NCBI GenBank assembly: GCA_025526915.1 | Contig: JAHLKH010000125.1 | Location: 1 to 64,000, forward strand | Source of the DNA: Entophlyctis helioformis | Lineage: Eukaryota > Chytridiomycota > Chytridiomycetes > Chytridiales > Chytriomycetaceae | Length of the DNA stretch: 64,000 nt | Reading direction: 5' to 3' | Shown here: positions 1 to 49,299 of the stretch, one piece after another | Layout of the letters: every line of letters starts with the position of its first letter | How positions within the stretch are numbered: the stretch's first letter is position 1 | Notes under the pieces: model-generated | What the model was told of the DNA's origin: nothing | Seen by the model: only the letters and a program-made list of their open reading frames with translations | Database searches by the model: none | Made by a program: the position numbers and the translations under genes

Positions 1-533
1 TTATTATTACTGAAATTATGTTATTTGTTAGTTTCTTTTGGGCCTTTTTTAATAGTAGTTTAGCACCTAGTATTGAATTAGGAGCAGTATGGCCTCCAGT
101 AGGAGTAACAGCAATAGATGCATGGAGTTAGCCATTATTAGGAAGTTGTATATTATTAGGAGCAGGATTTATTTAGACTTATGCACATCATAGTTTTTTA
201 AAAGGTGATAAAGATTATTCTATTATAGGTATGTTCTTAACAATAATATTAAGTTTATTATTTTTAGTAATACAATATACAGAATATTCTTTTGCTGAAT
301 ATAGTTTTAGTGATTCTGTTTTCGGTTCTTCTTTTTATTCTTTAACTGGTTAGCATGGATTACATATTATAGTTGCTGTAATCTTTTTAGTAGTAATGAT
401 GGGTAGACAAATTTAGGATCAATTTACTACTGAACATCACTTAGGATTAGAATTTGCTATATGGTATTTTCATTTCGTTGATGTTGTATGGTTATTATTA
501 TTTGGTATCGTTTATTGGTGGGGTGGTAATTAA
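1..533 (+). CDS. cox3: cytochrome c oxidase subunit 3, mitochondrial, 5' end missing
   Basis: This is the 3' part of mitochondrial COX3, a core membrane subunit of complex IV. Frame 3 reads through the diagnostic segments [37 protein letters not shown] and [20 protein letters not shown], then stops at TAA (531-533). The His/Glu-rich helix 3 region and the C-terminal HFVDVVW motif are typical of the family. Four in-frame TAG codons (129, 174, 351, 414) interrupt a standard reading. At least three fall where COX3 proteins usually carry an aliphatic or aromatic residue (before PLL, before TYAHH, before HGLH), so TAG is best read as leucine, as known in several chytrid mitochondria. About the first third of the protein lies outside the window. 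AT content is far higher than in the nuclear part of the window. Confidence 0.95.
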
Positions 534-1084
534 TTATTACCTATTAATCAGTTAATATGATTTCTCGATCTAGGGTCCAAAATCCGATGATTCACGGTCT
601 CCTGGGGCTAACCCTCAAGGGCCTCCAATTTTTATAGCTTGTCGGATTGTCTCAGCTGGGTCCTTGACGGGGGTTAAATCCAATAGAACTACATTATGTT
701 TGATGTTAGCCGACTGGTTCGGTTTACTATGTAGGCAGAAATTAATTGAAATAAATGGGGCTTAGTCCAGCGATTAATTTTTCAACAAAATCAAATCCAA
801 CAGATCATATCTTGACTTAATGGATTTCTGACCATCAATTGATTTTCTCGGGGGATCCGACAAACTAAGGGTCTAAGGTTAAGCCCGAGGCGGGCCGAGT
901 GGCGACCCTATTAAACAGCAAGTATTCAGCGATACTAAACAAAATCGCCGGCTCATCTGAGAATTTGAATTGAATTCTGGTAAGCTCCACAAAAGGGGTG
1001 ACCCAGCCCGAGGTGGTTAAAATGTCTTTAATAAGAAGGAGCATTAAAAAATAAATAAATAAAAAAGAAAGTAATAAAACTAAG
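534..1084. other. mitochondrial spacer with GC clusters
   Basis: No ORF or convincing tRNA cloverleaf was seen between cox3 and the small rRNA. The stretch alternates AT-rich sequence with GC-rich patches (about 580-680, 850-910 and 990-1015). Such patches resemble the mobile GC clusters known in some fungal mitochondrial genomes. One, CCTTGACGG at 662-670, recurs at 2308-2316. A tRNA that is edited after transcription could be missed by eye. Confidence 0.5.
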
Positions 1085-2215
1085 AAATAAGTAGTAAAAT
1101 TAATCCAATGAACTGGAACTGATTAAGAAATGTATGATTATAGCTAACAATAAACACATATCATTAAATAACACATGTTGGTAAAAAGATTATAAATAAT
1201 CTGATGCGATAAGGTGAGTAATAGGATCTTTCTACCAAAACTTTCAAAAGGAGGTTTTGATGAATAATCTTTAGGTTTAGGTAAAGAATTCTAAAAGGAA
1301 TCTGCCGATAATCCTTAACAGAAGTCACAAAATTGATTAGAAAGCAATTTCCATAGGCAGCAGTGAAAAATATTGAGCAATGAATGAAAATTTGACTCAG
1401 TTAATGATAAAGAATTAATAAATAATGATTAATTTATTTCTTTCGCTTCTTTCGGGGAGCTCTTATTCTGGATAAATACTGTGCCAGCAGCCGCGGTAAT
1501 ACAGATAGAATAGTGTAATTGAGAATAAATAGGTATAAGTGTAAAAAGATGGTGAACAAGTCTCACTAGAATAAAAAAGAAATAAAATGAATAATTAATG
1601 AAAAGATGGAATTTTTATATATTAATTAGAAAAATGTACGACAGTATTTTATTATTTATTATTGACATTCTATTACTAAAGTATGGGGATCAAAACAGAT
1701 TAGATACCTGATTAGTCCATACCCTCAATTGAAGATCATTTTTGGATTTTCCACCTCCTAAGTATTTTGGCAACATTGAAATGGAATTAATTTGGCGGGT
1801 CTTAATTGAAGCAGTGAAATATGTGATTTAATTAGATATAACGCTAGAAATCTTACCTAATTTTTGGTATTGCATGGCTATTGTAAGTTTATTTAGTGAT
1901 AATTTAATTGACAGATGAGATCATTAAGATTTTTTACTTTAAGTACTCATGATCCATAATTAGGGCTATACATGTATTACATTGATAATAATATAACTAA
2001 ATAGGGAAAAAATTATCTTGTTCTTATAATATTCTGAAATTCGAATATTTTAAGTTGGAATTGCTAGTAATCAATTTTTATTATAAATTGGTGAATATTT
2101 TTTTGAGATTGTACAAATCGCCTGTCAAAACAGAATAAAAAATTTTGATTCAAAAGGTCTTATTTTTGATTCGGTTTAAGTCATAACAAAGTTGTGGTTG
2201 CGGAAGCAGTTGCAT
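1085..2215 (+). rRNA. rns: mitochondrial small-subunit ribosomal RNA
   Basis: Conserved 16S-type blocks occur in order. AACACATG lies near 1170, GTGAGTAATAGG near 1213, and GGCAGCAGTGAAAAATATTG near 1355. The 530 loop GTGCCAGCAGCCGCGGTAAT is at about 1481. The 790 region ATTAGATACCTGATTAGTCC is at about 1700. The block corresponding to TTTAATTCGATGCAACGCG is near 1827, GGGCTATACATGTATTACA is near 1963, GGAATTGCTAGTAATCAA is near 2057, and the decoding-site block around GTCATAACAAAG is near 2180. The gene is AT-rich with reduced variable regions, as in fungal mitochondria. Both ends are approximate because they were set from conserved cores, not from a structure model. Confidence 0.93.
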
Positions 2216-38948: not shown

Positions 38949-39319
38949 TAGACTGCTCTGGACGAATGACCGACGACAAGGGCGTGGCATTGACCCAACC
39001 TCTAAAATGCATCGATTAGAGCGAATCTTGTTGCTGTTCTTGAAGCAATGCTGCATTGGCAAGGTGGCTGGAACGCGCGACTTTGGGAGGTGTCTGCCAG
39101 CCATTCCATCGCCGCGTGCAGAGATGCAGCGAGTGGACGGTTTGGCTTGTGGGCAGGTGTTGCAGAAGCGGTCGACGCCAACAGCAAGTCACGTGCTCTA
39201 TCACGTGATCCAACAGACTTTTTGTTGAGCGAACGATGAGGGGCAGGCAATTCTGTGTTTCCCCGTAGAGCACCCTGTGCCGGCACCTGATTGGTCGGCT
39301 GGTTTGCCTCGAATTTTGT
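38949..39319. other. spacer between TLG2 and the 39.3-41.2 kb gene
   Basis: No gene was seen in these 371 bp, which separate two convergent stops. It contains paired CACGTG motifs (39189-39208). Toward 39300 it turns unusually AT-rich for this genome, which may mark the edge of an inserted segment. Confidence 0.45.
39189..39208. promoter_or_regulatory. paired TCACGTG E-box motifs
   Basis: TCACGTG at 39189-39195 is followed after 5 nt by TCACGTGA at 39201-39208. Both share the core of the palindrome upstream of TLG2. Here they lie 3' of two convergent genes, so their role is unclear. Confidence 0.3.
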
Positions 39320-41213
39320 TCAATTTGGCATCCAATTTTCAGACTTTTTGAATCCAATTTCATATTCTTGTCCAGATTCCCAGTCACTCTGAGCAGCCTG
39401 CAGCCGATGCCTTCTCAAGTCGTGGTCGCTTTGGCGCTTGCTTGTGGACTGCCGAGCCTGTCCAAGGGGCAGCAGTTGGTTGCGTGTTGGTAGTGTCACG
39501 AAGGACTGTCTGCCACTGCCTGTTGCGGCTGCTGTCCCTCTGCATCCAGTTGGCGCACTTGTGTGTGCTGCTGGGGCGGCCTGCTGCAATGTCCGAACGG
39601 CCGGTGTCACAGCCGGCACAGACGCACTGGCATCAGCTGCTGCTCTCTTCCGCTTGCTTGACGCTCTTTGGCGGCTGGCTGTTGGTGTGGCAGCTACAGC
39701 AACGGCTGGCTGTCCATGCTCGTCCACAAGGTACTTGTCGTCGTCAAGATAGTCAAGGCACACAGTGTCAACAGAGTCGCAACTGTTGACAGCCATCGCA
39801 CAAGAGGCAGTCGAGCTCACCAACAAGGACATGGATGGATCACTCGGCGTATTGTTGAGCTGCCGCGTATCATCAAGCTGCTGTAAGGCATCGCGCTTGG
39901 CTTGATCTGACTTTGAGAACTGTCGAGGCGATACACACAGCAATCCTGCTCACACATGCCAACCTCTCCTGGCTGCCTTTGTGTAGACAGCATACTCTTT
40001 CCAGACGGGATTGCTGATGGATCCCCATACAAAGATGTTGTATGATCTGTCGTAGGATGGGTATGTGCTGTTTGTGCAGTTAGTCTGCTGTGCGATCAGT
40101 GCATACACATCCTATGAGAGTATCCTACCGGCATTTGAATGATGGCTCAACAAGGAATCCGTGCTGCTTGACGTCCATCGACCTGATCTTGAAGATGAGT
40201 TGCATCTGTCGCGCGACTGACATGAACTCTTCCAGGTCTGACTTGTCATTCCGGCCCTTTCCAGTCCGTCGTAAACTGTCTCGCCATGCGTTAAACAGCT
40301 GTGTCCCATGCAATGGTTAGTGCTGATCGTCAAGGAGAGTGTGTTGTCTGCATGCTTGTAAGCTTACTTGCTCCACGGGATAGGACGTAAGCGCGCGACC
40401 ATGCAGGTGCGTAAAGGTAGCTCCTTCTGGGACTGCAAACTCTACATCTGGATCAAGTGTCGCAAGCATGCCCAGATTCTGGTTGTTGGCTGCTGCAAAG
40501 ACACTCGTCTCGGCAAACTGCCGTGTGAGGTTTGGAGTGATTGCCCTGCTTATTGTGCGTTGTGGGTGATCAGACTTACCTTGTGATGATCGCGGTACTT
40601 TGCATAGTGCTCAAGGAGTTGGAGGACGCTGTCCTTGAACAAGGGATCAGGATGCAATGCCATGCATCACGATGTCAGGATTGCTGGGATCTACGAGGCA
40701 TGGGAGCTTGACGAGAAGCTTGTCAATGTCTTTGAGAAGCACCACCTATACTTCACGGCCGCCAAGTTTCACCTTGATGGCAAGAGCATGGACGTTGTTG
40801 TTAAGTCGTCTTGGCACAAAGCTTGTCAGAACCAAGGGGAGTCGAGACGGCTGGATGCATATGACGCCTTTACGCGGGCCATCTGTGAGCTTGATGAGTG
40901 GCAGCAGCGAATGTATTTGGTTCTTCTCGTCCTCCAGTGTCATGCTTTCGAATGAACCATTGTCGCAGTGGAAGCACAAGCTGTTGTCCAGAAACTTCCC
41001 TGTTGGGTCGATGGCCTGTGGGTCTGCTTGACTGGGAGCTGGCTCTGTGGTGGCTGCTGCGTCCATGTCGTCCTGCTGGTGCACGGCGGCATGTGGTGGC
41101 TGTTGCTTGTCCATTCCAACTCTGTCGCCAGAGCACCACTGCCACTGGTGGTGGGATTGCTGTGATTGGTCGAGCCCAGATTGTGTCGCGGCACTTGCCC
41201 AAATGCGCGCCAT
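39320..41213 (-). CDS. unidentified multi-exon gene, apparently disrupted, divergent from the XPG-Fanzor gene
   Basis: The family is not recognised. Five blocks look coding and are bounded by splice signals. They are a 5' block with NSLCFHCDNGSFESMTLEDE and RKGVICIQPSRLPLVLTSFV; MALHPDPLFKDSVLQLLEHY (about 40583-40665); NLGMLATLDPDVEFAVPEGA (about 40373-40527); WRDSLRRTGKGRNDKSDLEE (40129-40298); SYNIFVWGSISNPVWKEYAV (about 39985-40075); and a Ser/Ala-rich last exon ending YEIGFKKSENWMPN at TGA 39320-39322. The 5' block meets an in-frame TAG (40746-40748), yet the same frame continues as KDIDKLLVKLPCLVDPSNPD, then shifts before DPLFKDS. It may be decayed, or these may be base-call errors, or two genes. 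Its position, back to back with the Fanzor-like gene, suggests a companion ORF. Confidence 0.4.
39348..39359. repeat. 12-bp direct repeat, left copy
   Basis: TTGAATCCAATT lies in an AT-rich patch at the left edge of the 39.3-49.0 kb segment. An identical copy in the same orientation is at 49038-49049. Confidence 0.5.
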
Positions 41214-41452
41214 CAACAGCAAGCACAACACGGGCGACAACACAAGGCAGATGATGGGCGGATGGTTCCGACGGGCCAATCGGGAAGCGGGCGAACAAAG
41301 GCCGACCGACAAGCTGGCGAAAAATGGGCCAAGCTGCCACTGGCAGGTGGATCTGATGGTGCCATAATATGGATATGGGCGTTCTGTTTTCCACCCATCC
41401 GACAAACCTCATTGCACTTCGCACCACCACGGCCGCTGACAGGTGTGCCTGT

Positions 41453-41547
41453 GTTTCTGTGTGCCTGCGTGTGCTTGCGTGTGCGTGTGCGTGTGCGTGG
41501 CGTGTGTGGTGTGGTGTGTGTGTGTGTGGGCGTGTGTGTGTTGGTGG
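41453..41547. repeat. GT-rich imperfect microsatellite
   Basis: About 95 bp of GTGTGC/GTGCGT-type sequence lies between the divergent genes at 41.2 and 41.9 kb. Open frames across it are repeat-driven. Confidence 0.9.
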
Positions 41548-41698
41548 AGAGGGACGTGTGCATGCAGGCGCAACTGAGCGGCAGACGGCAGGCTGCACCG
41601 ATGCACTGCTGGAAGTAGAAGTGCTTGCTGGTACTGACCGTCACGCTGTTCTATGCCCCTGCCTGCCACGCTCTTCACAGCCCAAGACCTCATCAGTC

Positions 41699-41751
41699 CA
41701 CAACTACCGCCTCCCAAGACAACCAGCCCACAACTACCGCCTGCCCAAGAC
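41699..41751. repeat. tandem repeat, two about 22-bp copies
   Basis: CACAACTACCGCCTCCCAAG is repeated as CACAACTACCGCCTGCCCAA with an 8-bp spacer, in the leader of the XPG-Fanzor gene. Confidence 0.85.
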
Positions 41752-41774
41752 TGTAAGTCCCCCTGCCGCACGCT

Positions 41775-41838
41775 CTGTTTCGCCGCTGCCGCCCATTCTG
41801 TTTCGCTGCTGCCGCCCATTCTGTTTCGCCGCTGCCAC
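41775..41838. repeat. 23-bp tandem repeat, 2.7 copies
   Basis: The unit starts CTGTTTCGCCGCTGCCGCCC and is repeated almost three times, ending about 80 bp upstream of the XPG-Fanzor start codon. Confidence 0.88.
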
Positions 41839-41920
41839 GTGCTTTCTTGCCGCGTGTTTTCTTGCAGACACACTCTTCACTGCCACATGCTGACGCCACC
41901 GCCACTCGCCTTGACACAGC

Positions 41921-44900
41921 ATGGGAATCACCGGGTTCGGCCAAGTATCCAAGAAGGGGTATTGCAGCGTCGCAATACCCCCCGACGACAAGGTGTCCGG
42001 CGCATTGGACGTGGCATTCGGAGCCACCCAGCCGCACCAGCCTCATCAACCACCAGCCTCACCCCGCCCACCAGCCACCTCATCAACAGCACCAGCCTCA
42101 TCAACCAGCCGCACCTCATCAACAGCACCAGCCTCATCAGCCAGCCGCACCCAGCATCATCATCGTCCTTGTTGATGTGCTGAGTGTGTTCTACCCTCAG
42201 CTCGCGGCAGCAGCCGCACTTCAGCCGCCATCGTCCATTGGTGAGTGGCTGGAGATCGTCGCACCCATCCTTGAGGCATTCCTCAAGTCGGTCGGCGACG
42301 GCCGGGTCATCATCTTCCACGTCGACGGCCAGCACGGCGACTCTGGCATCAAGCAGCAGGCGCATACCAGCCGCGCCTTGAGCGTCTTGCGCGCAGCGGC
42401 CAAGGTCCAGCAGTTCTTTGCCAAACGTGCAACCAATCAAGGGTTTAGACAGCTAGAAATGCAAGTTCCCTGCTTTGTGTTGCATGATGCGATCCTAACT
42501 AACAGTCGATGTTGCAGAAAAGAGCTGCAAGCCCTCCTCCATTCATTCACGTTGACACGCGACCATAAGGGCCACATTGCCGAGGCTCTCAAGATGCTGC
42601 TTGGACCCACTTCCCCGCATAGGGTCTGTTGGTGTGCCCACGAGGCCGACGTTTGCATTGCACGCGACGCTGCCGAGTATGCAAGCCAGCCAAGGTACAG
42701 ATAGCCATGACATCCGTCTGTTGTGATTGATGGCTGACAATCTGCATCTCACAACAGCGACATTCCCATGGCGGTGATCGCCAACGACTCGGACGTCATT
42801 TTCCACTGCGCCGGACGTTGTCCTGTGATCACGACACGCATGTACCGCGGCCGCGCCACCAACATCCACACATACAATCACCAGGGCATTGCGACCATTG
42901 CAGCCGCCCTGGGATTGCGCAATTTCCCAGGCGCTTGCCAACTGGTCGCCGCCCTTGCAAAAAACGACTATCACGATTGTTACGGGCGAGGTATGTGCGA
43001 TTCCTGGCTTCATGCTCTGTGTTGTCATCGATCCTGTGGTGTTGACTAACTCGCGTTGCCACTCACATCATCTTGCAGGCATTGCTGCTGCCGTCAAGTT
43101 CGTTAACAAGCAGTTTGACGCCGCGGCAAAGAAGCGCGGCTTCAACAACCCGGCCGACTTCTGTGCGCTCCTTCAAGATCCTACGGAGGCCATGGATTTC
43201 GCGTACACTGTCGGATTCGCGTACTACAACGACCTGCTGAAGGTTGGAGGCGTGGCTCTTGCCAAAACTTTCCTGAACGCCTTTGCCGTTTTCATCCTTC
43301 ACGAGGAATCCGGGGCTTTCGCCAACATGGTCGTCGCCCAGACTGGCGACAGCAGTCAATCCACCGCGCCAGTGCCGAGGCAAGTCTTTGCTTGACCGTT
43401 CGAGGACACTGCATTGTAGATGCATTTGGATGCATAGCACCATACTGACCATCCATTGCTACGTGGAAATGACAGCAGCCAGGCTGCCAACACGACCACC
43501 ACGCCCCAAGAACGGTATGTATGCATGTGATCTCTGCAGGTTCTCACATTACTGACTTATGCTCCTATTTTGATGTCATTGTTGGATCGTGATGCAGATG
43601 CCAGCTGCATGACGGCTGCGTTCTTGTTCACCCCAAGTCGCAGAAACACAACCCCAACTCGATCGCCGTACATCTGACTCTGGAGGACGTTGAACGGCTT
43701 GGCATCGACATTCTCAACACGAGGGAGATGGATGCAACTTTGGACAGATCAAGAACTGCCCAATTGCTCTCGACGGTGTCCTCAAGCACGCGGCAGATCG
43801 CCTCGCTGGCATGCCAGACAGTGTTGCTGCCCGTGATCTTCTGGCCGAGATCAGCAGGTCGGCGAGCTCGAAACTGTTACAGATTGTCCACGAGCAGTCT
43901 CAAGCAGCGACAGTACGCGCGACGCTCGAGCCAGTCGATCAGGCTGTTTGGGATGGACATGTAAGTTGCTGCATGTCTCTGATGCATGTGCACTCCTTGC
44001 CTGGACGTGTCAAACTCAATCCACTGCTCATTGTACAGGGCGCTGCCGAAAGGATGAAGAAGCAGTTGGGCAAGATTGTCAATCGTCCATGCAAACCACA
44101 CCGCCACCTATCGACACCGCGTACGTACTGCTTGCATTGGGATCATGCCAACTCGTTACTGACAGCACCTTCTTTGCTGAACGTTGCTATTCCAGAAACA
44201 GATGCGCAGAAGGACTCACAGAAAGACCCACAGCAAGCCACGCAGCAAGTCAAGCATCAAGGCAAGGCCATCACCCGAGGCGGTTCCCCATTGACCGCTG
44301 CCGACATCTGCAACAAGGCCGTGGACAGGCTGAACAAACTGAGAAGCCTCACGGATGGCCAACCAGTGACACACCGCGAGCAGCTGAAAGCGGCCATCGA
44401 CTTGCTAGAGTCCATCATCAAGCAAGCCACGGTGCGTCTTCATCTTCACTGGCTGTGTGTGCATGCCATGACTTGGCACGATCACTCATTGCTCCACTTG
44501 ACAGGAGGCTCAAGTGCCCAAGCTGCCCGAGCAAGAACCGCCATCCGCCGACAGCCAGGCTGATCAAGCAGACCGCAAGATCTTGTATCTCAATCAAGAT
44601 GCAGACATCCGGACGACGGTCAGTTCTGGTGTTCCATTGCTGCTTGCGTGTGCATTGTGTGCACTTGGAATGCATTGCTGATCATGCATCCAACCTCTAC
44701 AGGCGCGACGCCGAATCACCAAGCAACAGGAGGCTGCGAACAAGCAGAAGCGCGAAAAGCAAGCTGCCAAGGCCGCGGCAGACAAGGCCATCGACAGGAA
44801 CAAGGAGAGTGCACGCCGGCAAGACCGCCGGAAGAAACCAGGGAGCAAAAAGAAGCAGACGTACGTGTTGTACACTGTGCCATGTGCCTTGGGCATGCTT

Positions 44901-47900
44901 GCTGACATCTGTGGGGTTTGCAGACGCAAAGCTGGAGCACGAGTGACACAACGTCGGGTTGACAGAAATGGGGGACGCCTCTTCTCAGGGGCACCCATGA
45001 CGCTCCCTGCGGCCACCGCCAGCGACAATCAACAGCCTGCTACAGTCACCAGCGGCAATGATCAACAGCCAGCCGCGGATGCACCCGACCATCCCACCAC
45101 CGACGCACCTGATCCACCCGCTGCAGACGCACCCGACCATCGTAGCATGAGAGTGGAGCTGGAGGTACGATTTAGGATCACCATTCTGCCTGTCTACATG
45201 CATGTATGACTTTGCATTTACTGACATGTTGGCTGGCATGGTGCTCAGGACATGCTGTCCAGTGGCCCGCAGAGTGCCCCGATCTTTGGCGTTCATGCCA
45301 TCAGGTCATTGGCAGATTGGACGCGTCCTCTGCTCTCCCAGGACGTCGTCACAAGGGTGCACTCGTTTACCGTCGGTGCGCGACATGCCGGCCTCGTCAT
45401 CATCGGCGCCATCCTCGAAGAGCTGCTTGAGCTGGACCAAGACGCACCCCTACCGCACAAGTACCATGTCTACGGCTGGCTTGATGGCCAGACAACGCGG
45501 TACTGCTTCCTGGATGTCGACTTCAAGCGACTCGACGACCTCGGCGACAAGGACATCATCAAGGGCCTCGGCGCTGTCACGAAAGCGGAGCTCCTGTCTG
45601 GCCGATTCACGCTTCGCGAGGGCATCACTGCGCGGGCCATGTACGGACGGAGTCAATACAACCACACAAGCAAGGAACGTTGCTTTGGGCACCCAGTGAA
45701 ACTGGCGAAGGGTACAACACTCGAGTGCTGTACATTCGAGTCGCCTGAGTCGCCCGAGCATGACACCGCCAAGCAGCCCGACGATCAACAAGTTGCACCC
45801 CAGCCAGCTGTGCCCGATGATCACGGCAAGCCTGAGCAGCCAGCAGCAGCAGCACTGGCAGCACCAGCACTGGCAGTGCCAACACCAGATGACATTCTCT
45901 CGATCATCACGACGGATGAGTCGTCCATGGCATCCCTCTTCCGGCACGTGTCGTATGTGTTGACTGGAAGCGGGATGGAGCAGCCGCAGTCCACCATGCT
46001 CCAGCTCAATGCTTGGCTTGTGACCATCGCCCAGCTCATGATCCATCGTTGCTGGACGCCGAGCACGTTGCAGGCCAATGCGACCAAGAGAGCCAACGCG
46101 ACCAAGAACAACGCGCGGCAGAAGGGCACAACCAAGAACGACGCGCGGAAGGCCGAGTGGAAGGCAGGCGCGCGGCATCCGACCAGATGGTGGTCGAGCT
46201 CACACCCAGACAACGCACAACGGGCTGATGCACAGCAGGCAGCTGTGCCCTATCGGCTTGTCAACACCCTGCTGACCGCAAGCGGCGACATATTTGACAA
46301 CTTGGCGAGGGAGGTGAGCGCCACACTCGCCAAGCACTTCATCGAGAACCGGTCAAAGCTTGCATTGGTCGCAGCCCAGAGAGCAATGCCTGCTGTGACT
46401 CCGAGCAGATTGCAGCGTGGGTCGATGCCATATTCAAGCCGCTCAAGACCACCAAGGTTGCCAGGCGTGCCTCCACTCAGGACGCTGCTCAGGACGCCCC
46501 ATTGCCGGCCATCGAGGACATCACCATGGACGCCGCTCAGGACGCCACTCAGGATGTCGCTCCTCCCGCCCCAACTCTCAAGCGGACTGTGTCACAGCTT
46601 CTGCTGGCCACTGATGGCAGTGCATCCAAGAGGCAAAGGGACGAGACTACTGCCCCTGTTGCCACAGATGCCATGCAGGCCACACCACCAGCCGCACAGG
46701 ACGGGGACGCCATCGAGATCCCGCAAGAGCTGCATCCGATTCAGGCGATTGTGCGCAGCATGTCAACATCGGACGTTGGACGGTTCTACCAACTCCTCAA
46801 GCTCGCTGGCACTTCGGTGATGAAGCTCTGCCCGCAACCAGCAAGCCGCGATCCTTTTGTCCTCATCACCGAGGCCACGCTCTTTTGGGCGGTGGTGGGG
46901 CAGCAAAGGGATCGCATCCAGGGCAAGCGCGATCCTGTCCTCCAGGCATTGCGAGAGGAGCTCCTGGCCGCAGTTGGTAAGTTGCATGTGTCTATGCCAC
47001 GTCAATGCTATTTGATGCTGACACTCCACTTTTATCCAAAACTACAAAGATGGCACGTTGACTCTCGAGTCGACTAACAACGACATCCAAAGGGCCTTCA
47101 GCAATAGCAAGGAGCTGGTCATCCTCGACATCCTCCTGCCCGGCCTCCGCCCCAAGAATCGACGCCTTCCAACACAGGCTGAAGGTGATGAGGCTGCAGT
47201 TGATTCTCAGCCTCTGGTGGCTTCAAAGCAAGTGATCAGACAAGGCAGCATCATGACGGATGGATACACGGTCTATCAGCTGGCACTGGACTGCCGCACA
47301 GACCGTCCAGAGTCGCCTCGCAGTATGTGCCATGCTTGGATGCTGTGGTGCACGCATTGATTCTGACTGCCGCCTTGATCTGCAGGTCCCAACGCGGCGT
47401 CTCCAGCCCAGCAGCCCAGTCTTGCTGATGCTGCTGTTGGCATCCTTAATGCCTTGAATGGTCAATTTATTGAGCCTGACCACATGGACGGCACATGTGA
47501 GTTGCTGTGCCAATCCAGACGCACACTTGTTGTCCACACCAACTGACATGCCATCCACAGCCGCCGATCCAGCCAACCCGTCAGCCACCAAGCCAAAAGC
47601 ACCCAATCCTGTAAGCCACTTGCATGCCAACCTCGCGCATTGGTGCACATGCATTGCACATCCCTCACTCATTCCATGGCATGGCAGGCTCAGCGCAACT
47701 TTAATGCATCCCAGCGACTGCCCAATGTTGCTGATGCCAACAAGCTGCTCGCCGACAAGGACTATGGACTGTTCGCATTGTCAGCTTTGATTGGGGCGAA
47801 AGGTACCTGTTTGGCGCGTCCAGCATGCTAGTCAATGTCAAGGAGGAGACATACACGATGGAGTCCAACTACGTGCTCTCCTCTGGCATGGCACATGCCG

Positions 47901-48911
47901 AGGGCATCTTTCTGCGATGGTATGTATGCAATGACTCTGTGCCACTCTTGACCAGATCAACTCACAGTGCCTGTCTCTTGTGCCAGGTTCAACAATCGAT
48001 ATGCTAAGGCAACCGACGTCCACGAGGTTATTGCATTCAAGACAGCAAAGCATGCCGATCCAAACGCCACAGCAGGCGAGAGAGCCTTTTGGGATCTGCG
48101 CTGCCATGCGTACTGCACGCCATTCCTCAATGCACGGGTACGTTTTCTCTGTTTCTGAATGCCCATTGACATGACCGCCATGCTGCTTGATTGCCTGCTG
48201 ATCACACTGCATGGCATGGCATGACATGGCATTCCACAGAAGGTCAAAGCCAAGCGGTTCACCAAGCGCAGCAACCGCACGTCTGATCGCGGAAACGCTC
48301 TTGAGAGCATCATGAAGCTGGCAGGATCGACCACTGGCAAGCGCGCATCTGCTGCGTCTCAAGGCCGCTGTGACGAGCCAACAGAGAAGGACATTCCCGT
48401 TGTGTGGGCATTTGGCATCGACTTTACAGGCCAAGGTGGCCGGCATGCAGTGTTTGAGAAGTTTCTCATCAGGCATCTGCGGTCGTCTGGATATGCCTAT
48501 GTGCGTCTGATGCCACGCTGTCCATCCATCCATCTATCCATCTGTGCACCAACTGACCACACGATCATGCACACACACACACAGATCTACCGCTGCAACG
48601 AGAACCTGACCAGCCAGATGTGCCCGCAGTGCAAGCAGCGGATCCCATACGAGAACCACACCAACCTGCGACGCTACGAGTGCACAGACTGCGAGACTGT
48701 CTACCACCGCGACGTGCTTGGAGCCACCAACATCGGGATGGTCGCACAGGGACATCTACTCTTTGGACACCGGCCGCTCTACTTGACGCACACGCCAGCC
48801 GGTCAGCCTGTCAACAGCATCGCAGCAGTGTCCTCCACAGACACTCCACGTGCTCTGACTTCCAGCACAACCACCAACACTTTGAATCGGGGCACCTCCC
48901 GATCGACCTAA
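41921..48911 (+). CDS. XPG/FEN1-like nuclease fused to a Fanzor (eukaryotic TnpB-like) nuclease
   Basis: Twenty-one exons join in phase into about 1,800 residues, allowing one missing base near 43740 and one near 47766. The N-terminus MGITGFGQVSKKGYCS and the motifs LVDVLSVFY (Asp36), IIFHVDGQ (Asp86), AHEADVCIARDA (Glu173, Asp175) and ANDSDVIFH (Asp200, Asp202) reproduce the XPG-N/XPG-I metal site. An H2TH-like segment follows (HQGIATIAAALGLRNF). A Lys/Arg-rich coiled stretch (about 645-700) and an unassigned domain (about 780-1130) lead into a Fanzor part. This has GSIMTDGYTVYQLALD, RuvC-I VSFDWGERYLFG (Asp about 1512), VVWAFGIDFTGQGG, ENLTSQMCPQC with a second YECTDC knuckle (zinc ribbon), and RuvC-III HRDVLGATNI (Asp about 1735). 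Fanzors are RNA-guided DNA endonucleases. The fusion with an XPG nuclease is inferred from splicing, and two adjacent genes remain possible. One intron (43380-43475) has a GC donor. Confidence 0.75.
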
Positions 48912-49299
48912 CGGGTCACTTCAATAGAAGGTGAGATGCTTGTTGGATGTGCCTCGCCCGCCTGTCGTCGCATGCTTGTTGCTGACTCGAACCTTCCATC
49001 GTGTGATGTGCTGGCTTGCATTCGTCGCCTCTCGGGTTGAATCCAATTCCAAATCGCTTGGTAATTGTTTGAATGTCGGGCCATTTGCCGGCGGTTTGCC
49101 GGCATTCCCTCGCCCTATTGCCCACCCCTCGCTAAAGACCGCACACGTCACAAACATGTATGTGGCATGCGCCTGGCTGTGTGCCGTTCACTGGCCGTCC
49201 ATGCAGCCTGCTGACTCTCTAGGGCCGTGCTCCGATATGCTGCACTTACCTCCTTGGTTGCGCCGCTATGCCTGGGCTCGCCATTCCTCTTGACAGCCG
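48912..49299. other. 3' flank of the Fanzor-like gene; candidate guide-RNA end
   Basis: No protein gene was seen between the Fanzor stop and the COX4 start. An AT-rich patch (49030-49075) carries the right copy of the 12-bp direct repeat. A 9-bp repeat, TTTGCCGGC, occurs twice (49084-49092, 49095-49103). In known Fanzor loci the guide RNA is encoded at the 3' end of the gene and overlaps or follows the ORF, so this is where one would look. No RNA fold was computed. The region must also contain the COX4 promoter. Confidence 0.35.
49038..49049. repeat. 12-bp direct repeat, right copy
   Basis: TTGAATCCAATT, identical to 39348-39359 and in the same orientation, lies 127 bp after the Fanzor stop codon. 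Confidence 0.5.

Follow-up and report, generated by a model that had tools for sequence, protein, structure and literature searches.

Positions 41,921 to 48,911 of a 64,000-nucleotide stretch of DNA from the chytrid Entophlyctis helioformis (GenBank assembly GCA_025526915.1, contig JAHLKH010000125.1, positions 1 to 64,000 of the forward strand; this whole stretch is referred to as the window) hold a copy of a gene that most likely encodes a protein of ~1,800 residues, in which an XPG/FEN1-superfamily nuclease is followed by a linker and middle region and then by a Fanzor1-like nuclease, and which is the only recognised gene of a high-copy transposon. XPG/FEN1-type nucleases are flap- and branch-cutting enzymes, and Fanzors are eukaryotic relatives of the CRISPR-type RNA-guided nucleases. 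From the occurrences of its sequence across the assembly, the gene is one copy of a high-copy transposon family in E. helioformis, a setting that the preliminary description did not notice. The preliminary description of this DNA knew of no Fanzor with an N-terminal XPG module, and no Fanzor joined to an XPG-like N-terminal nuclease was found among the papers listed in literature searches. Fanzor transposons are already known, as are chimeric Fanzor elements and 9-bp duplications (PMC3627910).

The assembly searched comprises 29.57 Mb in 482 contigs, the window being contig C125. Eight full copies of the gene, L061-L068, were compared; seven were modelled to the end and L063 at the N-terminus alone. 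In the window copy the gene is laid out as follows.

41921..43514, plus strand: XPG/FEN1-like module with MGI, VDVLS, HVDG, HEAD, NDSD and NDY (other copies match Pfam XPG_I_2 under its cut-off)
43598..45164, plus strand: linker exons, the first of them frame-broken in this copy
45249..46716, plus strand: opening stretch of the long middle exon, without a known domain (the L061 piece matches nothing in Pfam); in this copy its frame is broken near 46.4 kb
46717..48911, plus strand: Fanzor module as modelled, its putative start set by comparison and its exon 47688-47919 frame-broken in this copy
47236..47290, plus strand: TDG motif (GSIMTDGY), a motif described in PMC10711439
47777..47830, plus strand: RuvC-I, SFDWG, from a motif search in loci and modelled copies
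48582..48760, plus strand: catalytic glutamate (NENLTS), C4 zinc ribbon and HRD

Because it is frame-broken near 43.7, 46.4 and 47.8 kb by comparison with L061 and L065, the window copy probably makes no full-length protein. The breaks at about 43.7 and 47.8 kb had been noted in the preliminary description and are genuine against these two copies. Its phase-compatible chain of 21 exons holds in so far as exons and introns of the kind named are found, but the chain must have bridged the third break near 46.4 kb, in an exon that no intron interrupts in L061, L065, L062 and L066; nor is the number of exons fixed, as it varies from 17 to 24 across the seven modelled copies. Despite its breaks, the window copy is chained by the gene finder with no jump of frame, via introns that delete RuvC-I, and a phase-compatible chain in a single copy is therefore weak evidence. 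The third break does not alter the odds of a fusion, for which other copies are the evidence. High-scoring exon candidates in the window are 43961-44038, 44121-44195, 44432-44504, 44619-44702 and 45165-45248, and, further on, 47611-47687, 47920-47986, 48138-48239 and 48501-48584. At ~42.1 kb, in the repeat-rich part of the first exon, copies differ by 70-73 bases.

One gene or two

The preliminary description had proposed that one gene encodes an XPG-like N-terminus together with a Fanzor C-terminus, and the same order recurs in many copies. A match to the Fanzor-side profile TNB lies downstream on the same strand at 69 of 129 XPG-I places, and in 56 of these 69 at a distance of 5.1-6.7 kb (the 129 places were hand-picked from the matches listed among 223, with further exon rows from these copies omitted, and the TNB matches are the best 150 of 205 candidates). 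The reversed same-strand order occurs 0 times among the matches compared, and the opposite-strand arrangement within 16 kb five times. It is this recurrence that goes beyond chance. When the right end or tail of the element is counted together with the Fanzor part, 90 of the 129 places have such a partner downstream; the other 39 are unpaired because contigs end and because right ends were taken among the matches listed (100 of 192, here and in the pairing of element ends below).

Modelled from MGI or MGV to past the zinc ribbon, the gene measures about 1,700-1,900 codons in the other copies. Six of the seven models (L061, L065, L066, L062, L064 and L068) are free of frame breaks and L067 has two. 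As the gene finder can mask frame breaks with false introns, weight was placed on models that keep the motifs of both ends, namely the unbroken L061, L065 (where VDG is IDG) and L068. Codon statistics support translation of the XPG part and of codons 601-1200 of L061/L066: the ratio of non-synonymous to synonymous divergence (dN/dS) is 0.24-0.44 for XPG in the diverged pairs L061/L066 and L064/L068, and 0.30-0.54 for codons 601-1200 of L061/L066.

The first alternative is that the transposon carries two adjacent genes with their own promoters, the chain between them being an illusion created by short, often readable introns. We consider this rather unlikely. It is favoured by the ease with which the finder chains even a broken copy and by the public gene models, which are separate pieces: the 14 public proteins of the family (11 found via the Fanzor profile and 3 via the XPG profile) are short and hypothetical, with 151-349 residues, which also weighs against a single transcript. 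Several further results weigh against a fusion. None of 7,999 proteins scored with a 1,779-residue query (proteins of 0.55-1.75 times the query length) is a full-length homologue. Codons 401-600 are hardly constrained, the third-position excess being absent (0.60), and in L061/L066 the final bin of 200 codons, with few changes, has a dN/dS of 1.12. Introns are often conserved as much as, or more than, neighbouring exons between subfamilies (L061/L066, L064/L068), as in the first linker of L061/L066, where introns are conserved at 0.91 and exons at 0.74. Short exon indels that are not triplets occur in the XPG and Fanzor parts of L061/L066 (triplets 2/3 and 2/4, respectively), and L064/L068 has triplets in 6/9 cases in XPG, 2/7 in the linker, 2/8 in the middle and 2/7 in Fanzor; the linker and middle indels of this pair being mostly non-triplet, one of the two models is partly wrong or decayed.

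What speaks against two genes is that the chain is in frame in several diverged copies that keep the motifs of both ends, that L061/L066 has triplet indels in 2/2 cases in the linker and 8/8 in the middle, a pattern that L064/L068 does not show, and that the two parts do not exchange places on the same strand among the matches compared. The fused XPG-Fanzor protein is thus the best-supported reading of these copies, its single transcript and its function being predicted. No relatives on viral contigs were confirmed in a set from which records near the E. helioformis genome may be excluded, and nothing relevant was matched in NCBIfam.

The XPG-like and Fanzor-like halves

The N-terminal half is very probably XPG-like, as judged by its motifs. 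Metal binding in FEN1 involves the acidic residues D34, D86, E158, E160, D179, D181 and D233. The N-terminal models begin with MGI or MGV, and VD, VDG, EAD, DSD and NDY follow in the FEN1 order; in EAD an aspartate replaces E160 of FEN1 (assigned by eye). The set of acidic motifs is complete in L061, L065 (with IDG) and L068 and incomplete in the models of L062 (lacking NDY), L064 (lacking several), L066 (lacking NDY) and L067 (lacking EAD). In an alignment of six rows, which are 36-97% identical to the first, M1, G2, V60, D61 and D206-S207-D208 are invariant; one row was partly typed from a sister copy and some rows lack a motif.

Profile comparisons point in the same direction with modest statistical support. 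XPG_I_2 is the sole Pfam family that matches these N-terminal sequences more than once, at E 0.014-0.038 in four of them and at E 1.9e-4 in P0013 (21.5 bits, curated cut-off 24.2). In a profile-profile alignment with hhalign, the element XPG profile and a host Asteroid homologue are aligned over EAD...DSD with E 0.015, compared with E 0.67 for an unrelated control. In the most likely reading, the Asteroid-type XPG_I_2 group is the nearest one. The acidic motif order is shared with both Asteroid/XPG_I_2 and FEN1/XPG; the element protein, whose FEN fold is putative, differs in being fused to a Fanzor and in a divergence too great for a curated match. Of the two family assignments in the preliminary description, the Fanzor side is borne out by TNB above its cut-off, while XPG_I_2 lies in every case under the curated one.

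A second alternative is that the Fanzor is fused to a nuclease-like domain from outside the XPG/FEN1 superfamily, either another PIN-like domain or a lineage-specific one, and this we hold to be unlikely. It draws on the results that weigh against an XPG assignment: matches stay under the curated cut-off, Pfam gave no XPG match for the XPG reading frames of the window or for six further sequences, of which three are raw reading frames, and genome searches with XPG_I and XPG_I_2 recovered genuine host XPG genes and zero element copies. Against a host Rad2/XPG homologue hhalign gives E 0.08 with other residues aligned, the XPG profile has no convincing match in the PDB (ribosomal proteins at E 0.14 or worse), and the AlphaFold model of an annotated XPG fragment is of low confidence (predicted local distance difference test 43.5). 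A domain of another superfamily would have to account for the MGI/MGV start and the ordered acidic motifs in rows as diverged as these, and for the repeated matching of XPG_I_2 and no other Pfam family. The N-terminal half thus looks like an XPG nuclease, and membership of XPG/FEN1, for which motifs and a sub-cut-off profile match speak, is not established.

By its motifs, the C-terminal half is a Fanzor1-like protein that has diverged and in which one fingerprint is altered. The open reading frame at 48225-48911 matches Pfam TNB (PF07282) with E 1.8e-11, above the cut-off. The Fanzor-defining motif, D-X(125,275)-[TS][TS]XX-C4 zinc finger-X(5,50)-RD (Bao and Jurka 2013, PMC3627910), is found in six of the seven modelled copies, the L062 model skipping RuvC-I. 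Fanzors are described as having a rearranged glutamate six residues N-terminal of the zinc finger (PMC10711439), and E-x6-CxxC-x(12,18)-CxxC-x(4,8)-D is present in 30/30 TNB loci, which were themselves picked by TNB score. TDG, which marks the Fanzor1 WED domain (PMC10711439), occurs as MTDGY, KTDGY or RTDGY in all seven models, its location in a WED domain being assumed. One observation weighs against the assignment: RuvC-I reads DWG in 16/16 loci with a readable motif context (30 searched) and not DPG, which is near exclusive to Fanzors (PMC10711439). Both AlphaFold models of annotated fragments, that of the XPG fragment included, are poor and weigh against the fusion as a whole. No convincing PDB match was found for the Fanzor half, an AI-designed nuclease reaching E 0.38 for the zinc ribbon.

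Element, ends and mosaic copies

The gene lies in a core element that, in the window, is carried inside a second element.

39238..49133, strand not assigned: composite element with ends GAGGGG...CCCCTC (36 of 42 other scored matches start at window 39228-39277; the best 40 of 108 candidates were scored for this left boundary)
39384..41114, minus strand: left-arm gene of the composite, ~390 residues predicted (gene finder: minus 38, plus 16)
41146..49082, plus strand: core element with the XPG-Fanzor gene, from comparison with L063, L067 and L068
48872..49082, plus strand: mostly non-coding right end, candidate omegaRNA scaffold (79% mean column identity in 16 copies, chosen among those with a match)
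49083..49133, plus strand: composite right tail (a 21-base piece at 58 places, in 48 of 76 tails)

An imperfect inverted repeat is made up of the left end of the core, GGCCCGGTTCTCATACCATTACC, and the right one (reverse complement GGCCCGATATTCATACAATTACC); a core without terminal repeats was thereby ruled out. With up to three mismatches, 80 left and 192 right ends were found in the 29.57 Mb, and 0 with backward-pattern controls. Of the 80 left ends, 36 have a same-strand right end at most 22 kb away, and one has it in the reversed order; 26 of the 36 pairs span 7.2-9.8 kb. These fall into classes of 7.2-8.0 kb (12) and 8.8-9.8 kb (14), and ten further pairs of 11.6-20.6 kb may be mispaired or may contain insertions or additional genes. 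In C35 and C193, flanks of 7-9 repeated bases were seen by eye near the core ends; two copies do not suffice to define the core's target duplication. A short copy at L007:1029-2016 (C35), internally deleted to ~1 kb, still has the two ends of the core and the exon with the zinc ribbon, and carries AGATCGC at both flanks, one base off the right end.

In the window class, the core minus its left inverted repeat is nested in the element with GAGGGG/CCCCTC ends: the left repeats TGGTGG.ATYGCTGTGATTGGTC are present, and C125 is not among the 80 left ends. The composite tail occurs 76 times in the genome, and no exact empty site of the core within a composite was found. Target duplications of the composite match at 9/9 bases in 3/11 copies, at 7/9 in two more and at 2-6 in the other six, small offsets being allowed (C50 was not entered, and C53, which lacks the usual tail, was left out); one of 110 cross pairs reaches 7 and none is higher, so that the 6 of the window copy is within chance. 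Of the MuDR/MULE hallmarks, a target duplication of the right size (~9-11 bp; 9 bp in PMC3627910) is present, and the MULE transposase domain PF10551 has 0 matches genome-wide, other transposase types not having been searched for.

The left-arm gene is multi-exon and diverges from the XPG-Fanzor gene, its arm is 88-93% identical in long genomic matches, and it has no Pfam match. At L081 (the right flank of C53) the composite tail carries the GCCGGC...GCCGGC piece inverted and then unrelated sequence. The insertion flank at L008:2341-3186, minus strand (C336), resembles by eye an RNase H2 subunit gene. Window positions 1-2000 have a G+C content of 0.31, compared with ~0.5-0.64 elsewhere in the window.

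From their patterns of identity, the copies are recombinational mosaics whose right module is undergoing homogenisation or exchange. Exon identity between L061 and L066 falls into blocks (E1-E6 0.62-0.75, E7-E10 0.81-0.98, E11-E12 0.71-0.81, E13-E18 0.84-0.98), and synonymous divergence drops from 1.1-1.4 in XPG to 0.07-0.13 at the Fanzor end. The window copy shares ~85-90% DNA identity with L063, L064, L067 and L068 in large parts of the final 1.8 kb, introns included, and in the XPG part ~65-79% or no match.

The layout of the right end fits the published Fanzor arrangement, in which the flanking DNA is the guide (PMC10432273), and the fit falls short of proof. A hairpin just 5' of the window stop codon keeps its pairing through one double (compensatory) change, and a second hairpin spans the stop codon. 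The predicted stability of the stretch as a whole, no higher than that of shuffled sequences (z 0.60), weighs against the candidate RNA, and no Rfam family matched at gathering thresholds. The bases 3' of ...CGGGCC vary from copy to copy in the core class and are a fixed tail in composites; the first tail bases, from 49083 onward, would be the guide of the window copy.

Among known systems, SPu-1, a Fanzor1 element of Spizellomyces punctatus (633 residues, a single open reading frame, ~2.1 kb, putative TA duplications; PMC3627910, PMC10432273), is likewise an inverted-repeat element with a Fanzor gene and the defining motif, and no transposase was found in it. The E. helioformis element differs in its protein of ~1,800 residues, ~20 exons, size of mostly 7.2-9.8 kb, nuclease module at the N-terminus and a RuvC-I that reads DWG. 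The MuDr-like Fanzor1 elements ROr-4, PBl-3 and MCi-4 (PMC3627910) are likewise fungal, with 9-bp duplications and no MuDR transposase in the element; here no PF10551 match was found in the whole genome, the comparison covering the duplications and the transposase. In Dictyostelium and Polysphondylium, Sola2-Fanzor chimeras (PMC3627910) also combine a transposon arm with exchangeable Fanzor parts, although they belong to another superfamily, and here it is the 5' coding part that varies and the right end that is uniform.

Possible roles of the fusion

If the XPG-Fanzor protein is made as predicted, the right end could give rise to an RNA whose guide is the adjoining outside sequence, and this RNA could bring the Fanzor part to a site that is vacated or allelic; repair of the cut there from the filled copy would copy the element back. 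The XPG part may trim 5' flaps or branched joints during this repair or, alternatively, take part in excision. In the window class, the element, minus its left repeat, would travel inside the second inverted-repeat element.

Two further alternatives are both improbable. One is that all copies are dead relics and the fusion has no present function, as the window copy, broken in at least three places, and the two interruptions of L067 could suggest; the uninterrupted L061, L065 and L068 models with both motif sets, the low dN/dS of the XPG part and the exact 9-bp duplications in 3/11 copies argue against it. The other is that the fusion is itself the mobilising enzyme, its RNA-guided cut and flap-type nuclease excising and inserting the element with no DDE transposase or recombinase, and that the fixed composite tail is a shared guide by which the 3' module homes from copy to copy; a uniform Fanzor end beside a diverged XPG end would then be accounted for. 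Academ transposons encode an XPG nuclease and a DDE transposase with a zinc finger and a helicase; a literature search on them added nothing useful.

Genes of this kind may have been overlooked, as the public records of the family are short hypothetical proteins. The fusion of the XPG-like and Fanzor-like halves would be a ready-made enzyme with two activities, and a natural union, maintained in many copies, of an RNA-guided nuclease with one that cuts flaps or branches would hint at what Fanzors do for transposons, be it copy-back repair, excision or homing.

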